The notes under the pieces were generated by a model, which made no database searches, was not told the origin of the DNA, and worked only from the letters and a program-made list of their open reading frames with translations. Made by a program: the position numbers and the translations under genes. A stretch of 64,000 bases of DNA from Marinilabilia rubra. Lineage in GTDB: Bacteria > Bacteroidota > Bacteroidia > Bacteroidales > Marinilabiliaceae. Position 1 is the stretch's first letter; each line of letters starts with the position of its first letter. The DNA lies in assembly GCF_003121985.1 (NCBI RefSeq), contig NZ_QEWP01000009.1, positions 62,001-126,000 on the forward strand, written 5' to 3'. Below, piece by piece: positions 45,693 to 64,000 of this stretch.

Positions 45693-45739
45693 TGGTAACG
45701 GATACTCATGTGAAAAAATTCTATTTGGGTAGTCGCTAA

Positions 45740-45908
45740 TTAGTGCGTGTCCATAAAGTCCCATTTACTGCGTTACGCTTGCCCGAAAATTACTCATTTA
45801 CAAAAGTAAACTGCGTATTTTAGGGCTTCGCAAGCCTTGTAAATGAAACTTTCTGAACACTCACATAAATTTTGACACTGTTTTGCTTAGTTTATAGACC
45901 GACGCTAA
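45740..45908. mobile_element. Palindromic element overlapping the TonB-receptor stop codon
   Basis: TTAGTGCGTGTCCATAAA (45740-45757) and TTTATAGACCGACGCTAA (45891-45908) are imperfect inverted ends. CGCTAATTA occurs as a direct repeat at 45734-45742 and 45903-45911, as if duplicated on insertion. Part of the interior (GCGTTACGCTTGC, CTTTCTGAACACTCACATAA, GCTTAGTTTATAGAC) aligns with the element at 63338-63437. The TAG stop codon of the receptor (45905-45907) is inside the right end. Confidence 0.6.
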
Positions 45909-48040
45909 TTAAAAGTGACTTTGAAACCTCCTGAAATGGCAATACCTGTATTTTTGAATTGCCAGGGCATTTCAAACCGATTATCTGTCAAATTGTATAC
46001 TTCAGTAAATAAATCAATCGCATAAGCTTTCTCCTCAGCCAGGCGTTGGGACCCAAAAAAATTAATTACAACACCAGGCTCAAATTCGTTCCTGCCCGAC
46101 TTTGAACTACTGTCGTAATAAGCTCCGGTATAATTCAATACGGGTCTCAGGGTCAACCCGAAGTCAGTAGTCAACAGAATTCCCGCATTGCCAACCAGCT
46201 CAGGAGCAAAAGGGACCGATGCGCCATCCTGATCGTCATCGCGATCATTGGAGATCCGGGTCTCCATGCTTGTGGCATTGGCAAACCAAGAGAAACCTGG
46301 ACTTAATTCCTGTCTGAATTCCAATTCAAAACCTGAAGATCTGGTACCACCCGCATTGATTGATTGTGATTGAGAAGGGTTTTCACTCACGCGAATATCA
46401 ATAATGGCATCATCCACTGAAATGTAGAAAGCCCTTAGATCCAGAAAAAGATTATTTCCAATCGATACATTACCCCCGAGGTCAAATGCCCGGCCCAATT
46501 CAGGATCCAGATCGGGGTTTGGCAACTGCCCGTGTTTCCCGGGTTCATTTCTGTCTTCAGGATCCAGTGTTCCACCCATTGATTTTAACCCGGGCGCCAT
46601 GAAGCTGTTTCCGCCATTGGCAAATAATGATACAGCTGTTGAAAGATGGTATTTCAGCCCTGCACTCCACAAGAATCTATGGTAAGCAATCTCTGGTTCA
46701 CCGGGATTACTTCCGGCAAAAAGATCAATTTGGGTGTTCAAACTATTGTAACGCAAACCTCCGCGAAGGGTGAGATCTCCAAAATTCAATTCCTCCTGCA
46801 AGTAAACGCCAGCCTGGGTAGCCCTGAATTTATTGCCATACTGCTCATAACCATTCACAGGATTTGAAGTGGTATTATAAGAAGCATTCTGATAATCGGC
46901 TCCAAAGGTCAGCAGATGCGCTTCTCCATGTCCCAGAGTGAAATTAACATCAAAGGGTAATATCCTTTGGTTGGCACCATTTTCTGAAACCAGACTGTCA
47001 ACCATATTGAAATTACTTTCCTGCCAACTGCGGTCATAGAGCCGCATTCCTGCAGAGGCATTAAAGGTGAAATTTTCAGACAACTTTGATGACTGAGCAA
47101 TATTTACCGTTGTGTACTCATGCGCAAATCCGCGGTAAACGCGGCCGGCATCTCCATTATGCCAGGTTTTATTGATAAAAACAGATAGCTGATGATCGTC
47201 ATTCTCACCAAATAAGAAATTAGCCCCACCAAAGATTTTAAACTTTTCATACTCCGGGTCTTTCTGCATATTCAACCACGAATCAGATGTTCCATAGTTA
47301 GTATAATCTGATTTTTCATAATTGACACCTCCAAAATAATTCAAGTTATCATTCCCGTTCTGATAGTAGGTTTGGGTGTTAAAGGTATTATAAGAGCCGT
47401 AAGATGATTTAAAAACCGCCTTTTCGTCCTCGAAGTTTTCTTTTAAAATGAGGTTTACAGTCCCGGCCAAAGGACTTTGATTACCTGCAAAATCCTGCGA
47501 TAAGTAACCGGGATACAATACCGATGCAGGACCACGTTGTATCTCGATACGCTCAACAGCCATTAAATCCAGAGCCATCGGATCAATAAAGGCATCCACC
47601 GGGAGTCCGTTCAGCATATAAGTGCTGTATTTGGGACCAATGCCGGCGTATGTGCCCCAGTTGGCATCATTACGGGACAATGCACTTACAGAAACTCCGG
47701 GTTTACCTCTTAAAACTTCAGCAATATTGTTGTTGCCGGAAACCGCATTCTCAAGATCCCTGGTTTTTAGAACATCAATTTTTTGAGTGACATTTCCGGC
47801 AGAACGATATCTTTTGCTCCCGGTCACCACCACTTCTTTCAATGCCACCGAATCACTGACCATCTCCTGAGAAATCACGGGCAAAGACAACAAAAAGAAA
47901 AGGAACAAAAATGTCCCTTTCAGAACAATAAATGACAACTCTTTCGCATAACATCTTCCACAATAATTCTGATTAGCAGGTATTCTGTTGAGGAATTCGC
48001 CTTTAAACAAGTCCGGTTTTGAGAAATTTGAATGTTTCAT
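45905..48040 (-). CDS. TonB-dependent outer-membrane receptor, probable nickel-chelate uptake
   Basis: Outer-membrane receptor of 711 residues without the carboxypeptidase-like extension of SusC proteins. A long N-terminus (about 1-58) contains the hydrophobic signal core LKGTFLFLFFLLSLPVISQ. A TonB-box-like segment (ALKEVVVTGSKRY) is followed by the plug (about 75-210, NNIAEVLRGKPGVSVSALS, VERIEIQRGPASVLYPG) and a barrel that ends GISGGFKVTFN-like with a terminal aromatic two residues before the end. It lies downstream of nikR on the same strand, and a NikR-like palindrome sits just before its start. Nickel or a nickel complex is therefore the likely cargo; cobalamin or iron would be the default reading without nikR. 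Its stop codon lies in a repeat element. Confidence 0.9.
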   Translation of the reverse strand: MKHSNFSKPDLFKGEFLNRIPANQNYCGRCYAKELSFIVLKGTFLFLFFLLSLPVISQEMVSDSVALKEVVVTGSKRYRSAGNVTQKIDVLKTRDLENAVSGNNNIAEVLRGKPGVSVSALSRNDANWGTYAGIGPKYSTYMLNGLPVDAFIDPMALDLMAVERIEIQRGPASVLYPGYLSQDFAGNQSPLAGTVNLILKENFEDEKAVFKSSYGSYNTFNTQTYYQNGNDNLNYFGGVNYEKSDYTNYGTSDSWLNMQKDPEYEKFKIFGGANFLFGENDDHQLSVFINKTWHNGDAGRVYRGFAHEYTTVNIAQSSKLSENFTFNASAGMRLYDRSWQESNFNMVDSLVSENGANQRILPFDVNFTLGHGEAHLLTFGADYQNASYNTTSNPVNGYEQYGNKFRATQAGVYLQEELNFGDLTLRGGLRYNSLNTQIDLFAGSNPGEPEIAYHRFLWSAGLKYHLSTAVSLFANGGNSFMAPGLKSMGGTLDPEDRNEPGKHGQLPNPDLDPELGRAFDLGGNVSIGNNLFLDLRAFYISVDDAIIDIRVSENPSQSQSINAGGTRSSGFELEFRQELSPGFSWFANATSMETRISNDRDDDQDGASVPFAPELVGNAGILLTTDFGLTLRPVLNYTGAYYDSSSKSGRNEFEPGVVINFFGSQRLAEEKAYAIDLFTEVYNLTDNRFEMPWQFKNTGIAISGGFKVTFN

Positions 48041-50857: not shown

Positions 50858-51721
50858 ATGAAAAAAGAAATGCTGGAAGAAATATTGAACGAAAAACTCA
50901 CAGGCATGTCGTCTGTGGGGGGAGGATGTATTGCCGACTCACAGGTCATCTCAACACAATCCGGAAGAAAATATTTTCTTAAGCAAGGCTTTTCAAATGG
51001 CATGTTCCGAAATGAGGCCAATGGTCTAAAAGAACTCGCAAAACCCAACGCAATAAAAACCCCTGAAGTCATTGACTTTGGTGAAGATTACCTAATTCTT
51101 GAACACATTGAGCAGGGTTCCCGGAAAAAAAATTTCTTTGAAGAATTTGGTCGCAAGTTTGCAGAACTACACCGCTTCAGCTCAGATAAATTTGGTTTTT
51201 TCGAGGACAATTTCATTGGCTCCACTCCTCAAAAAAATCTGCCTGCGGAGGACGAAGCCGCAAATTGGGCTAATTTTTACTGGAATAAAAGGTTAATGTT
51301 TCAACTAAAACTAGCTGAAGAAAATGGTTATGCTGACGAAAAAATGCTTCGCCATTTCTCCCGCCTGGAAGAGATTTATGAATCACTTCTTAATGGAAGT
51401 GAGGAGCCACCTGCACTGATGCATGGTGATCTTTGGAGCGGAAATTACATGTCGGATATCGACGGAAACCCGGTAATAATCGACCCTGCTGTTTATTATG
51501 GCCACCGGGAAGCAGACCTGGCAATGACAAAACTTTTTGGAGGTTTTTCCGGTACATTTTACAAGACATATAACGAAACCTGGCCATTAAAGGATGGAGC
51601 TGAAAGAAGAGAGCCTCTGTATCTTTTATATCATGTAATGAACCACCTGAACTTATTTGGACCGGGCTACTACGGACAAGCAATAAACTTAATTGAAAAA
51701 CTGACCCGGGAAAAAGCTTAG
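50858..51721 (+). CDS. Fructosamine/ketosamine 3-kinase family protein
   Basis: Phosphorylates C3 of ketosamines attached to proteins, which then break down and free the amine (protein deglycation). The 287-residue protein has the kinase-like fold: GSGCIAD-like Gly-rich segment (SSVGGGCIADS), the Lys in KYFLKQGF, the catalytic loop HGDLWSGN (about residue 188) and the metal-binding IDPAVYYGHREADLAMT. In bacteria these enzymes often prefer ribulosamine or erythrulosamine over fructosamine. It is translated from the same transcript as the phosphatase gene 12 bases upstream. Its TAG stop codon overlaps the first base of a repeat element at 51721, so the element may have set the exact end of the protein. 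Confidence 0.92.
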   Translation: MKKEMLEEILNEKLTGMSSVGGGCIADSQVISTQSGRKYFLKQGFSNGMFRNEANGLKELAKPNAIKTPEVIDFGEDYLILEHIEQGSRKKNFFEEFGRKFAELHRFSSDKFGFFEDNFIGSTPQKNLPAEDEAANWANFYWNKRLMFQLKLAEENGYADEKMLRHFSRLEEIYESLLNGSEEPPALMHGDLWSGNYMSDIDGNPVIIDPAVYYGHREADLAMTKLFGGFSGTFYKTYNETWPLKDGAERREPLYLLYHVMNHLNLFGPGYYGQAINLIEKLTREKA

Positions 51722-51882
51722 TGTCAAGTCAAGCATAGTCTGACGGCCCAAGCCTTGCTCTTTCTACCTTGTGCTTCTCAAAAAAAGACTCACGTAGCTA
51801 CGGCTATGCTTACTTTTTTGTTGTTTTCCACAAGGCGAAAAATAGCGGTGGCTTACCCGACATTCTACACTTGACTTGACAC
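51721..51882. mobile_element. 162-bp MITE-like element, copy 1
   Basis: GTGTCAAGTCAAG (51721-51733) and CTTGACTTGACAC (51870-51882) are perfect inverted ends, with TA on both outer sides (51719-51720, 51883-51884). The inside also pairs partly (AAGCATAG with CTATGCTT, ACCTTGTG with CACAAGG). No coding frame. It is nearly identical to 53020-53182, same orientation. The preceding TA plus its first G make the stop codon of the kinase gene. Confidence 0.85.
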
Positions 51883-51955
51883 TAGTGTCTGAAAAAAAAG
51901 GGGGGGAGATGGAAAAAACTCACCCCTGGCAACCTCTTCATTCACCGGAAACAGA

Positions 51956-52660
51956 TTAAACCACAAAGCCTCTGGATTCGGCAAGAATCACTATACTTTC
52001 AATAATCTCTTCATCCGACAGAGTTGAACAGTTAAAAAAGAGATCGAAAAAATCAATATCGGGCCGTTCTTTTTCAAAATAATTGCGGAAAAGGGACCGA
52101 CGATGATCCATTTCTATTGCCTCTCTTTTAGCCTCCTGAATATTCATCCCCTGAGAATCGGCAACTATTTTTGCCCTCCAGTCAAGTGGTGCCTGCAATT
52201 TCACATGAAGTGAATTAGCAAAATTTTTGGTAATAGCCTCAGCAGCACGACCTACAATAACAACACTTCCTTCAACGGAGGCATTGTATATAAATTTCGC
52301 AATGGTATTTTTAATTTTTACATCACTGGGATAATATTCATCGGAAAAGAAAAGAGCAAGATTTTCAAAAAAGCCACGCTCTTTATATTCCGATAAATCC
52401 TGCATCAACGAAGGAGAAAGCTTAAGTTCTCTGGCAGATTCTTCAATAATTTCTTTGCTAATCCACCTCCAGGTCCTGTTATTGCCGAAGGATTTATTTT
52501 TTTCGGTAAGCGTCTCCGATAATTTACGGGCAATTCTTCGACCAGGACAACCATACTCACGAGAAATTGTAATTACAGGTCCTGGAGATTCAAAACTGGG
52601 TCCCGGACTCTTTTTCCGTCCGGTGCGTTCACGCATGTATTTCAAAAACAGATTATCCAT
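51956..52660 (-). CDS. Cytidylate kinase-like family protein
   Basis: A 234-residue P-loop protein of the cytidylate-kinase-like group. The nucleotide-binding loop is ITISREYGCPGRRIARKLSE, of the form seen in this group instead of classic GxGKGT. Other parts include SVVIVGRAAEAIT (a Gly-Arg core strand) and LHVKLQAPLDWRAKIV; the C-terminal third includes DHRRSLFRNYF. The natural phosphate acceptor of this family is not established, so it should not be called Cmk. It lies between the two copies of the MITE-like element and points away from the downstream repeats; no operon partner is visible. Start at 52660 gives MDNLFLKYMRERTGRKK. Confidence 0.85.
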   Translation of the reverse strand: MDNLFLKYMRERTGRKKSPGPSFESPGPVITISREYGCPGRRIARKLSETLTEKNKSFGNNRTWRWISKEIIEESARELKLSPSLMQDLSEYKERGFFENLALFFSDEYYPSDVKIKNTIAKFIYNASVEGSVVIVGRAAEAITKNFANSLHVKLQAPLDWRAKIVADSQGMNIQEAKREAIEMDHRRSLFRNYFEKERPDIDFFDLFFNCSTLSDEEIIESIVILAESRGFVV

Positions 52661-52944
52661 AAATTACGAGATTGGTGTGCAACAAGCCCTAACCGATTCC
52701 AACAGGAATAAATTCTGGCTATCTGTTTTAAAAATACGGTTTTTTGTCTAAATACACAAAATAAAAAAGGGCAGAATAATTCTGCCCTTTCCCTTTAAAT
52801 CAGCATTTGCTAACCAAATCCAAGTCTATGAAAAAAATCTACACTGCAAAAGTGAGAAATATTTCCTTTAATAACACTAAAACTCGCTTAAAGCTTGTTA
52901 AAGAATTTTCATGGGCAAATACTCTAAAACAACTCTGTCCTTAG

Positions 52945-52958
52945 AATAGATCGTTAGA
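52945..52958 (+). repeat. AATAGATCGTTAGA repeat copy
   Basis: Same 14 bases as at 4690-4703 and 24560-24573, followed here by CCCTAACTTTCGGGAT, which makes a small hairpin in place of the GC hairpin at 24574. Confidence 0.45.
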
Positions 52959-53019
52959 CCCTAACTTTCGGGATAAATACCTGCCTGGTTGAAGTCAAAC
53001 AACATCTATGGGAAACCAA

Positions 53020-53182
53020 GTGTCAAGTCAAGCATAGTCTGACGGGCCAAGCCTTGCTCTTTCTACCTTGTGCTTCTCAAAAAAAAGACTCACGTAGCTT
53101 CGGCTATGCTTACTTTTTTGTTGATTTGCACAAGGTGATAAATAGCGGCGGATTACCCGATATTCTACACTTGACTTGACAC
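53020..53182. mobile_element. 163-bp MITE-like element, copy 2
   Basis: Same ends GTGTCAAGTCAAG and CTTGACTTGACAC as copy 1 and only a few substitutions inside (for example CGTAGCTTCGGC in place of CGTAGCTACGGC, and one extra A in the A-run). There is no TA duplication here; the flanks ACCA and TGGT extend the palindrome instead. The near-identity suggests recent movement or conversion. Confidence 0.85.
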
Positions 53183-53835
53183 TGGTAATGCTGATAAGCT
53201 TAGAACTTACACAGACACACCTGCAGCTTAAACCAATTGAATTTTAGATATTCACAAATATATGCCGAAGTATTGCTCTCAGATTTGGTCAAAAAAAAAG
53301 GACAGCGTTTTTAAAACCCCTGCCCTTTTCCCTTAAATCAGCTTTGTTAACCAAATCCAAATCTATGAAAAAAAATCTATATCAAATATAGCCATTCATT
53401 CAATTAAAAAAATCCAACGATGGTTAAATGAGGTTAAAAAAATGACTGAATAAAAAAGGAACATTGCTCCTTAATCAATCCAGTCATTTTTAAATCCAAG
53501 TTTTATGAAAAAATCCCAATACAAAGATGACTAATTAAGTGCAAAAAGCACAGTTATTTGAGTTAATATTTGTTAATCAACAGGCAGCAAAACATCATTC
53601 TATAACTTCAAAGCACCTGAAAATTACATTCCTCAATCCGTTGAGAGATATTAATTGCAATATGAAACACACCACTTTTATTCCGGGGCTCCCCAAAACG
53701 CTCTATTGCTCAAAAGCCATTTAGGGGTATCTGATAATACCTTCCTAAATGGCTTCCATGAAAATCACATAGTCCTTGTCTGAAAAACAAAGCCCCATTG
53801 TAAGGTGAAGATGTATTTCTTTTTTAAAGTCTCTC

Positions 53836-63337: not shown

Positions 63338-63437
63338 TAGTGTTTGCAAGAAAACGACAATTGCGGCGTTATGCTTGCACTTTCTGACCAGACACATGAC
63401 TAAAAACAAATTTTACTTAGTTTATAGACAGGCACTA
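63338..63437. mobile_element. 100-bp palindromic element between kinase and transporter genes
   Basis: It starts TAGTGTTTGCAAGAAAAC and ends TTAGTTTATAGACAGGCACTA, so the outermost bases are TAGTG and CACTA. The left part matches 55430-55475 and 95-140; the right part (CTTTCTGA, ACTTAGTTTATAGACAGG) matches 45849-45908. It is the only copy in which both ends can be seen. One base separates its right end from the stop codon of the transporter gene. Confidence 0.65.
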
Positions 63438-63438
63438 C

Positions 63439-64000
63439 TTATAAAACTTTCTTCTTCCGGTTTTGAAGATTGTATAATACAAGGGAAATGCCAATAATAA
63501 TCATCCCGACGACCTGAAGAAGAGTTGGATTTTCTGACTCAATCAAAAGCCAACTAAAAAAGGCCCCGAAAACAGGTATAATAAATTTCCAGATATTCAA
63601 ATCGGACACTTTTACAGCGGGCCGGTTCAACAAGGTAAACCAAAGTGAAAATGCTGCAGCAGATAAAAAACTTAGCCATAATAAAGAAACGTAATACGGC
63701 CATTCAAAATCAAACCCATTGAATGGCTCTACCCATAATGAGATTACAAATAACCCGGCTCCTCCTAACATCAATTGGACAGAGCTAAGGCTCACGGGTG
63801 AAATATCAAGTTGGCTTTGCCGGCTGACCAAGACATTTCCATACCCTGAAGCAATATTGGCTAATACTAATAAACCAATACCCCCCAACTGAGACAACAA
63901 TCCAGCACCACTAAAGCTCAGCCCCTTCTCTATCGCCACCAGAATAATCCCTGCAATGCCTATCACAATGGTTTGAAATTTCTTCATGGTAAGAAGGTCA
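63439..64000 (-). CDS. EamA/DMT-family transporter, C-terminal half (partial at window edge)
   Basis: The visible part is about 187 residues with five to six membrane segments (IVIGIAGIILVAIE, GIGLLVLANIASGYGNVLVS, LMLGGAGLFVISLWV, YVSLLWLSFLSAAAFSLWFTLL, IWKFIIPVFGAFFSWLLIE, VVGMIIIGISLVLYNL), matching the second EamA domain. EamA proteins are about 300 residues with two such domains. The frame stays open to the window edge beyond MKKFQTIV, so the first domain lies outside. Predicted inner-membrane exporter of metabolites or amino acids; cargo unknown. Its stop codon is next to a palindromic element. Confidence 0.85.
   Translation of the reverse strand, partial: DLLTMKKFQTIVIGIAGIILVAIEKGLSFSGAGLLSQLGGIGLLVLANIASGYGNVLVSRQSQLDISPVSLSSVQLMLGGAGLFVISLWVEPFNGFDFEWPYYVSLLWLSFLSAAAFSLWFTLLNRPAVKVSDLNIWKFIIPVFGAFFSWLLIESENPTLLQVVGMIIIGISLVLYNLQNRKKKVL

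Follow-up and report, generated by a model that had tools for sequence, protein, structure and literature searches.

At the locus examined here, within a window of 64,000 nucleotides (the whole stretch of Marinilabilia rubra DNA that was analysed), two near-identical repeats of about 160 bp lie on either side of a kinase-like gene, which raises the question of what such repeats are, what moved them and whether the gene between them moved as well. The features concerned are as follows.

50858-51721, plus strand: fructosamine-kinase-like gene (PF03881), which ends at copy 1
51719-51720, no strand: left TA of copy 1, which together with the first base of the element forms the TAG stop codon of the upstream gene
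51721-51882, plus strand: element copy 1, 162 bp, perfect 13-bp inverted ends, full-length hairpin
51791-51810, plus strand: apical core of copy 1 (CACGTAGCTACGGCTATGCT), 0 mismatches
51883-51889, no strand: right TA of copy 1 and a 5-bp stub (GTGTC) of another element end
51956-52660, minus strand: cytidylate-kinase-like gene (PF13189) between the copies, a host gene and not cargo
53020-53182, plus strand: element copy 2, 163 bp, perfect 13-bp inverted ends
53091-53110, plus strand: apical core of copy 2, 1 mismatch

The two copies were 94% identical, in the same orientation and 1.14 kb apart, with the terminal pair GTGTCAAGTCAAG / CTTGACTTGACAC perfect in each, which confirmed the sequence-only reading of a near-identical pair with perfect 13-bp inverted ends at a spacing of 1.1 kb. 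The end motif, at two mismatches or fewer, occurred six times in the window compared with 1.21 expected, and none of 100 shuffles reached six. No open reading frame of 80 or more amino acids was noted within the copies (162-163 bp). Copy 1 formed one imperfect full-length hairpin (z of -5.8 as DNA and -7.1 as RNA) and gave the top covariance-model score among the searched stretches of the genome that contains the window (G000; 5.38 Mb in 59 contigs). The TA duplication that had been proposed for copy 1 fits the presence of TA at both edges (51719-51720 and 51883-51884), and the stub after the right TA resembles tandem copies elsewhere in the genome that share a TA. Copy 2 is flanked by AA on the left and TG on the right, with no visible TA duplication.

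Two other kinds of hairpin were noted in the window. Copy 2 sits between two similar units (52757-52838 and 53289-53375, minus strand) that are like the Bacteroidetes FopS small RNAs in Rfam and that score below the family cut-off (28.5 versus 56 bits). A separate palindromic repeat family with TA-like ends, near-full at 45737-45915 and a fragment at 63377-63441, has a different apical stem (TCATTTAC..GTAAACTGCG) and gave BLAST matches at many places in G000 stretches.

A DNA search of G000 with the element gave at least 45 matches (40 of 72 first-look candidates were scored), and the end motif, at one mismatch or none, occurred 102 times compared with 5 times for the reversed control. With nhmmer applied to fetched G000 loci, at least 57 places were found, at least 51 of which exceeded 150 bp, so that the count of 51 near-full copies is a lower bound for this genome. 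Identity of these copies to their consensus averaged 95% (range 85-99%). By a rough call of open reading frames, 50 of the 51 are intergenic, in settings that are tandem (27), convergent (13), divergent (6) or undecided (4), and one lies inside a reading frame. The repeat is thus not a chance occurrence, and its MITE-like nature, proposed from the window alone, is supported by the number of dispersed copies, by their placement between genes and by TA flanks, in addition to the hallmarks of terminal inverted repeats, short length and lack of genes. One G000 stretch (L377 4340-4506, contig C1) is a chimera that switches at the core from the left half of one arm family to first-family sequence in its right half, which suggests that recombination between copies occurs.

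Target-site preference was evident from the flanks of the 47 copies, of 51, that had both ends (four were dropped). The consensus was CTA-GTGTC...GACAC-TAG, where hyphens mark the element edges, with C in 40, T in 40 and A in 44 copies on the left and T in 38, A in 39 and G in 37 on the right; a symmetric preference was also seen three bases outside CTAG (A in 28 and T in 26 of 47). This consensus fits either a 4-bp duplication of CTAG or a duplication of TA within CTAG, and the two are told apart by copies with an outer base other than C or G. None of the 7 copies with a non-C base at -3 repeated that base as the last element base and 2 of the 10 copies with a non-G base at +3 repeated it as the first element base. 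Thus, a 4-bp duplication was unsupported and TA duplication within a preferred CTAG target is favoured. Tandem copies hold one TA in common. Against the TA-duplication reading, TA was found on the left in 37 copies, on the right in 31 and on both sides in only 24 of 47, the other 23 deviating on one side (20 copies) or both (3 copies) and never showing the same dinucleotide twice. These deviations were mostly one-sided, with CA or TG in place of TA. We read them as post-insertion decay, although the CTAG bases of the flanks deviate at 0.156 per site compared with 0.035-0.053 inside the element, about four times more often, which is more than decay at the element's own rate would fully account for.

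Whether copies occupy the same sites in relatives was examined in four genomes of the same genus (G001-G004), of which G004 has three loci identical to NZ_AJKI contigs of Marinilabilia salmonicolor JCM 21150. The PF03881 and PF13189 kinase genes adjoin in all four, and in all four copy 1 is missing from the spacer between them, which is a few tens of bases long; no element match was reported in G001-G004 for the stretch that matches the position of copy 2. The copies are therefore dispersed and variable between relatives instead of being held at fixed orthologous positions without target duplication. At base level, comparison of empty sites, both for copy 1 in G001-G004 and for a pair of G004 elements set against G003, was defeated by sequence divergence or by extra insertions. 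Three copies (G000 C59:200013, G004 C11:53186 and G002 C267:7414) at first resembled a single shared insertion; the match between their flanks proved to be a second hairpin repeat, at which it ends, so that descent from a shared site is unsupported. Composites of two different hairpins lying side by side and sharing a TA (L039 546-875, on G000 C59 near 200 kb, L095 and L088) recur in G000, G004 and G002. In another arrangement, seen at L078-L082 and L084 of G001, G003, G004 and G016, hairpins of a second arm family are embedded in a larger repeat, the flanks of which are common to several genomes.

Relatives of the element were not confined to this genus. A search of 61 genomes, G000 included, gave matches in 8, and several of these were limited to about 37 bp at the centre of the element, the surroundings being a different hairpin with other arms. 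The exact apical core (CACGTAGCTANGGCTATGCT) was found in genome contigs in at least 108 stretches (at least 110 matches), compared with a chance expectation of about 2 (2 x 257 Gb / 4^19). Among 80 of these matches, at least 39 assemblies were represented (by accession prefix), most of them Bacteroidota; Balneolaceae, Chlorobiota, Anammoxibacter, Methylacidiphilales and Endozoicomonas each appear in the title of a single row. The core, at one mismatch or none, was present in 3 of 295 genomes of the class sample, G000 included, and its distribution is therefore patchy. The exact core was absent from viral contigs, and a plasmid and phage search gave no match. In word searches of the open-licence PMC literature, neither the core nor the hairpin family was found.

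The wide set was chosen by the 19 fixed bases of the exact core, such that conservation of the core within it is partly a matter of choice, and many of its rows come from a few MAGs. YTAR at both ends, together with complementarity of 10 or more of the 14 inner bases, was noted for 67 of the 110 listed core matches as opposed to 2 of 1917 control positions within these loci; the 43 that failed include truncated contigs, runs of N and non-YTAR ends. Among the matches listed, the 67 passing elements were alike in layout: the ends read CTAG..CTAG in 50, the length falls within 165-168 bp in 60 and the distance from the left end to the start of the core is 73-74 bases in 58. Pairwise identity among fourteen representatives of them is below 75%. 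When 16 diverse elements, including both window copies, were aligned, 83.1% of paired cells pair compared with 61.5% when shuffled and 35-42% when slid, the last comparison being biased in favour of the structure, which was derived from the same alignment. Two-sided changes were seen in 28 of 36 pairs; in helices 3 and 4, each of the 12 inner pairs had them.

A covariance model (R1) matched 98 of the 100 loci tried (of 108) at E of 0.001 or less, 13 of them by construction; the two without a match were L121 (the Anammoxibacter row), in which the core may be due to chance, and L154. Beyond the set picked by core, the model matched ten further stretches in core loci, of which nine were inspected, and in 1.2 Mb of G000 another ten that do not belong to the first family; the weakest matches were near E 1e-3. 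The 19 inspected stretches had from 1 to 11 core mismatches (three or fewer in 9), and the core is therefore common and not universal. A second G000 family has CTAG..CTAG flanks, a length of 168 bp and a core that is off by 2-3 bases, further families with TTAG or TAAG ends are present in MAG-117, and one apical stem shows compensatory changes (AATAGC/GCTATT versus CGTAGC/GCTATG). One G000 copy of another family (L374) is without the core, a related copy that has it adjoining a first-family element at C59:200 kb; given L374, the core may be dispensable. These findings indicate that the two window repeats belong to a wide superfamily of full-length hairpins of about 160 bp with arms that co-vary between lineages. 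In kind the element is a MITE, and what is unusual is this wide, nearly fixed-length and co-varying superfamily.

As to what moves the elements, the explanation that we hold, with confidence somewhat above even, is that the window repeats are non-autonomous, TA-inserting elements mobilised in trans by an IS630/Tc1-mariner-like transposase and that the hairpin is needed for propagation. A transposase supplied in trans would act, probably by cut-and-paste, on GTG...CAC ends; insertion would be at TA, preferably inside CTAG, with duplication of TA; the hairpin would be required by the propagating element, the fold presumably acting during mobilisation; and the inserted copy would be neutral and would then decay. 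An enzyme of the IS630 type is suggested by the TA-in-CTAG target, the fit to TA duplication, the tandem copies that share a TA and the absence of copy 1 from relatives. TA within CTAG is also named as the IS630 target in the title of a reference cited by PMC2170065. The Tc1/mariner or IS630-like movement suggested by the sequence-only reading stood in the main. No transposase with the same ends emerged, an IS630 motif scan of 1.73 of the 5.38 Mb of G000 and of other fetched loci giving nothing convincing. Evidence against a single transposase is that end sequences differ between arm families, which would be unusual for one enzyme.

Two other classes of candidate were rejected. Duplication of a 4-bp YTAR target is a property of IS5 and IS701 elements. 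Derivation from IS4/IS5 (PF01609) or IS701 (PF13546) was made unlikely by the lack of a match to either in G000 and by the few informative copies, given above, that fit such a duplication. A lead to Rpn/PDDEXK_2 (PF12784) came from a Thiomargarita MITE, as described in part of PMC4853749; this gene is absent in G000 and was found in 6 of 25 genomes, and the cores noted at 30 PF12784 loci (at one locus an exact core at a distance of about 0.3 kb, at another a core with 3 mismatches at about 0.9 kb) were judged to be chance.

A single-strand enzyme of the HUH/Y1, RAYT type, acting on single-stranded DNA folded chiefly on the lagging strand and read as a hairpin like REPs and IS200/IS605 ends, is a rather unlikely mover of the elements, the evidence being divided. 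The full-length hairpin and the covariation of its arms are as such an enzyme would predict, a search for Y1_Tnp in 27 genomes, 26 of them core-bearing and G000 included, gave matches in 25, and a Bacteroidetes RAYT subclass is reported, in the portion of PMC6006769 that was available, to have on its flanks atypical secondary structures that also occur as copies at other places. Moreover, an 8-row RAYT alignment (A3) matched 26 of 33 element- or core-bearing genomes compared with 12 of 27 core-free genomes, figures that are uncorrected for phylogeny and genome size. Opposed to these results, none of 52 Y1 loci contained the core at four mismatches or fewer (there was one 5-mismatch place, in L221), no element was found by BLAST near 30 A3 loci, G000 itself is without an A3 match and G063, the source of several core rows, is without a match to PF01797. 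Nor was the strand of the core related to replication skew (22 of 51, 64 of 108 with 2 dropped, and 5 of 14). Three Y1_Tnp genes of G000 (L206, L207 and L208) lie amid short palindromic repeats of their own that are unrelated to the element.

The REP/RAYT arrangement as such was also rejected, no repeats flanking RAYT genes being found at the 52 Y1 loci and 30 further loci. The element is like REP/REPIN repeats in being a hairpin that would be spread by a trans-acting enzyme, and differs from them in that no RAYT adjacency was seen; REPs are 20-40 bp long with GTAG as a foot tag at one end (PMC3733652, in part), whereas here the hairpin spans 160 bp and carries GTAG in its apical stem.

Changes among resident copies bear on the role of the fold. 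Of 267 single changes in G000 that fell on paired sites, 57 kept the pair (21.3%) and 210 broke it, compared with an expectation, computed from the observed mutation spectrum, of 62 of 288 (21.6%), and two-sided changes kept the pair in 5 of 10 cases. Change per site was 0.035 in the core, 0.039 in the outer stem and 0.046-0.053 in the rest. In resident G000 copies, therefore, the fold is not maintained and the copies seem to decay as neutral sequence. For a fold that is kept between lineages but not in resident copies, the simplest reading is that it matters during spread, and thus it seems to be selected during spread and not by the host.

These results make it improbable that the hairpins serve the host as RNAs, whether terminators, stabilisers or small RNAs, with a fold kept for that purpose. 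The intergenic position of 50 of 51 copies, the excess of convergent over divergent placements (13 versus 6) and the very stable RNA fold are in keeping with such a role, but pairing is not favoured in resident copies, the core mutates nearly as fast as the remainder, copy 1 is missing in all four relatives and no Rfam 15 family matched the window elements at E of 1 or less. Rfam searches of 11 related loci gave two matches, both below cut-off, one of them MIR7504 (E 3.7e-5) on a hairpin, and membership of a known Rfam RNA family was rejected for lack of a match at family cut-off in the stretches searched.

Covariation would be mimicked by quasi-palindrome correction, in which template switching makes the arms alike without selection on the fold. 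We consider this origin improbable also, since G000 shows no sign of it (the 210 single changes that break pairs and the 5 of 10 two-sided changes that keep them) and since bulges, length and core position are constant across arm families. Finally, although the cytidylate-kinase-like gene is flanked by two direct copies, it is very hard to credit that the pair is a composite transposon carrying this gene, and movement of the segment as a unit is unsupported as transposition, since the gene is in the same place, paired with its neighbour, in all four same-genus genomes without copy 1, and is therefore host DNA and not cargo, and since the bases just outside the pair differ (TA on one side, TG on the other); homologous deletion between the two direct copies is possible.

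Movement of a MITE by an IS630 enzyme, as favoured here, has a precedent in RUP, a Streptococcus pneumoniae repeat for which IS630-Spn1 is the proposed mover (PMC2229807, in part). According to that account, RUP resembles the present element in being short, gene-less and present as many intergenic copies, with a TA target and inverted ends, and differs from it in being 107 bp long, in being from one species and in having ends that match a known IS; here the length is about 160 bp, many taxa are involved and a matching IS was not found. ERIC/IRU (127 bp) and Correia/NEMIS are likewise palindromic MITEs with TA ends, of which the transcripts form long stem-loops, and they differ in sequence and in host group; for these, no counterpart of a phylum-wide set with co-varying arms and a common apical core was met in the part of the same source that was available.

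Beyond the type of transposase, a more tentative possibility, which we regard as the less probable outcome, is that the enzyme reads the full-length hairpin in its folded form, with bulges and apical stem-loop, and not the terminal sequence alone, acting on a phylum-spanning superfamily of fixed length (about 160 bp) that inserts at TA in CTAG and has arms that drift while co-varying. The usual account of bacterial MITEs is that they derive from insertion sequences by internal deletion and need only the IS ends. Unlike that account, the ends here diverge while the length, the fold and (mostly) the apical core persist between lineages. If recognition of the fold is true, the element would represent a structure-guided kind of MITE. 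The findings set selection that acts as the element spreads apart from selection exerted by the host and lead to the testable claim that the enzyme reads structure, for which the covariance model and the core motif provide handles, both for finding the enzyme and for annotating a class of repeats that had no match at Rfam 15 cut-offs in the stretches searched.
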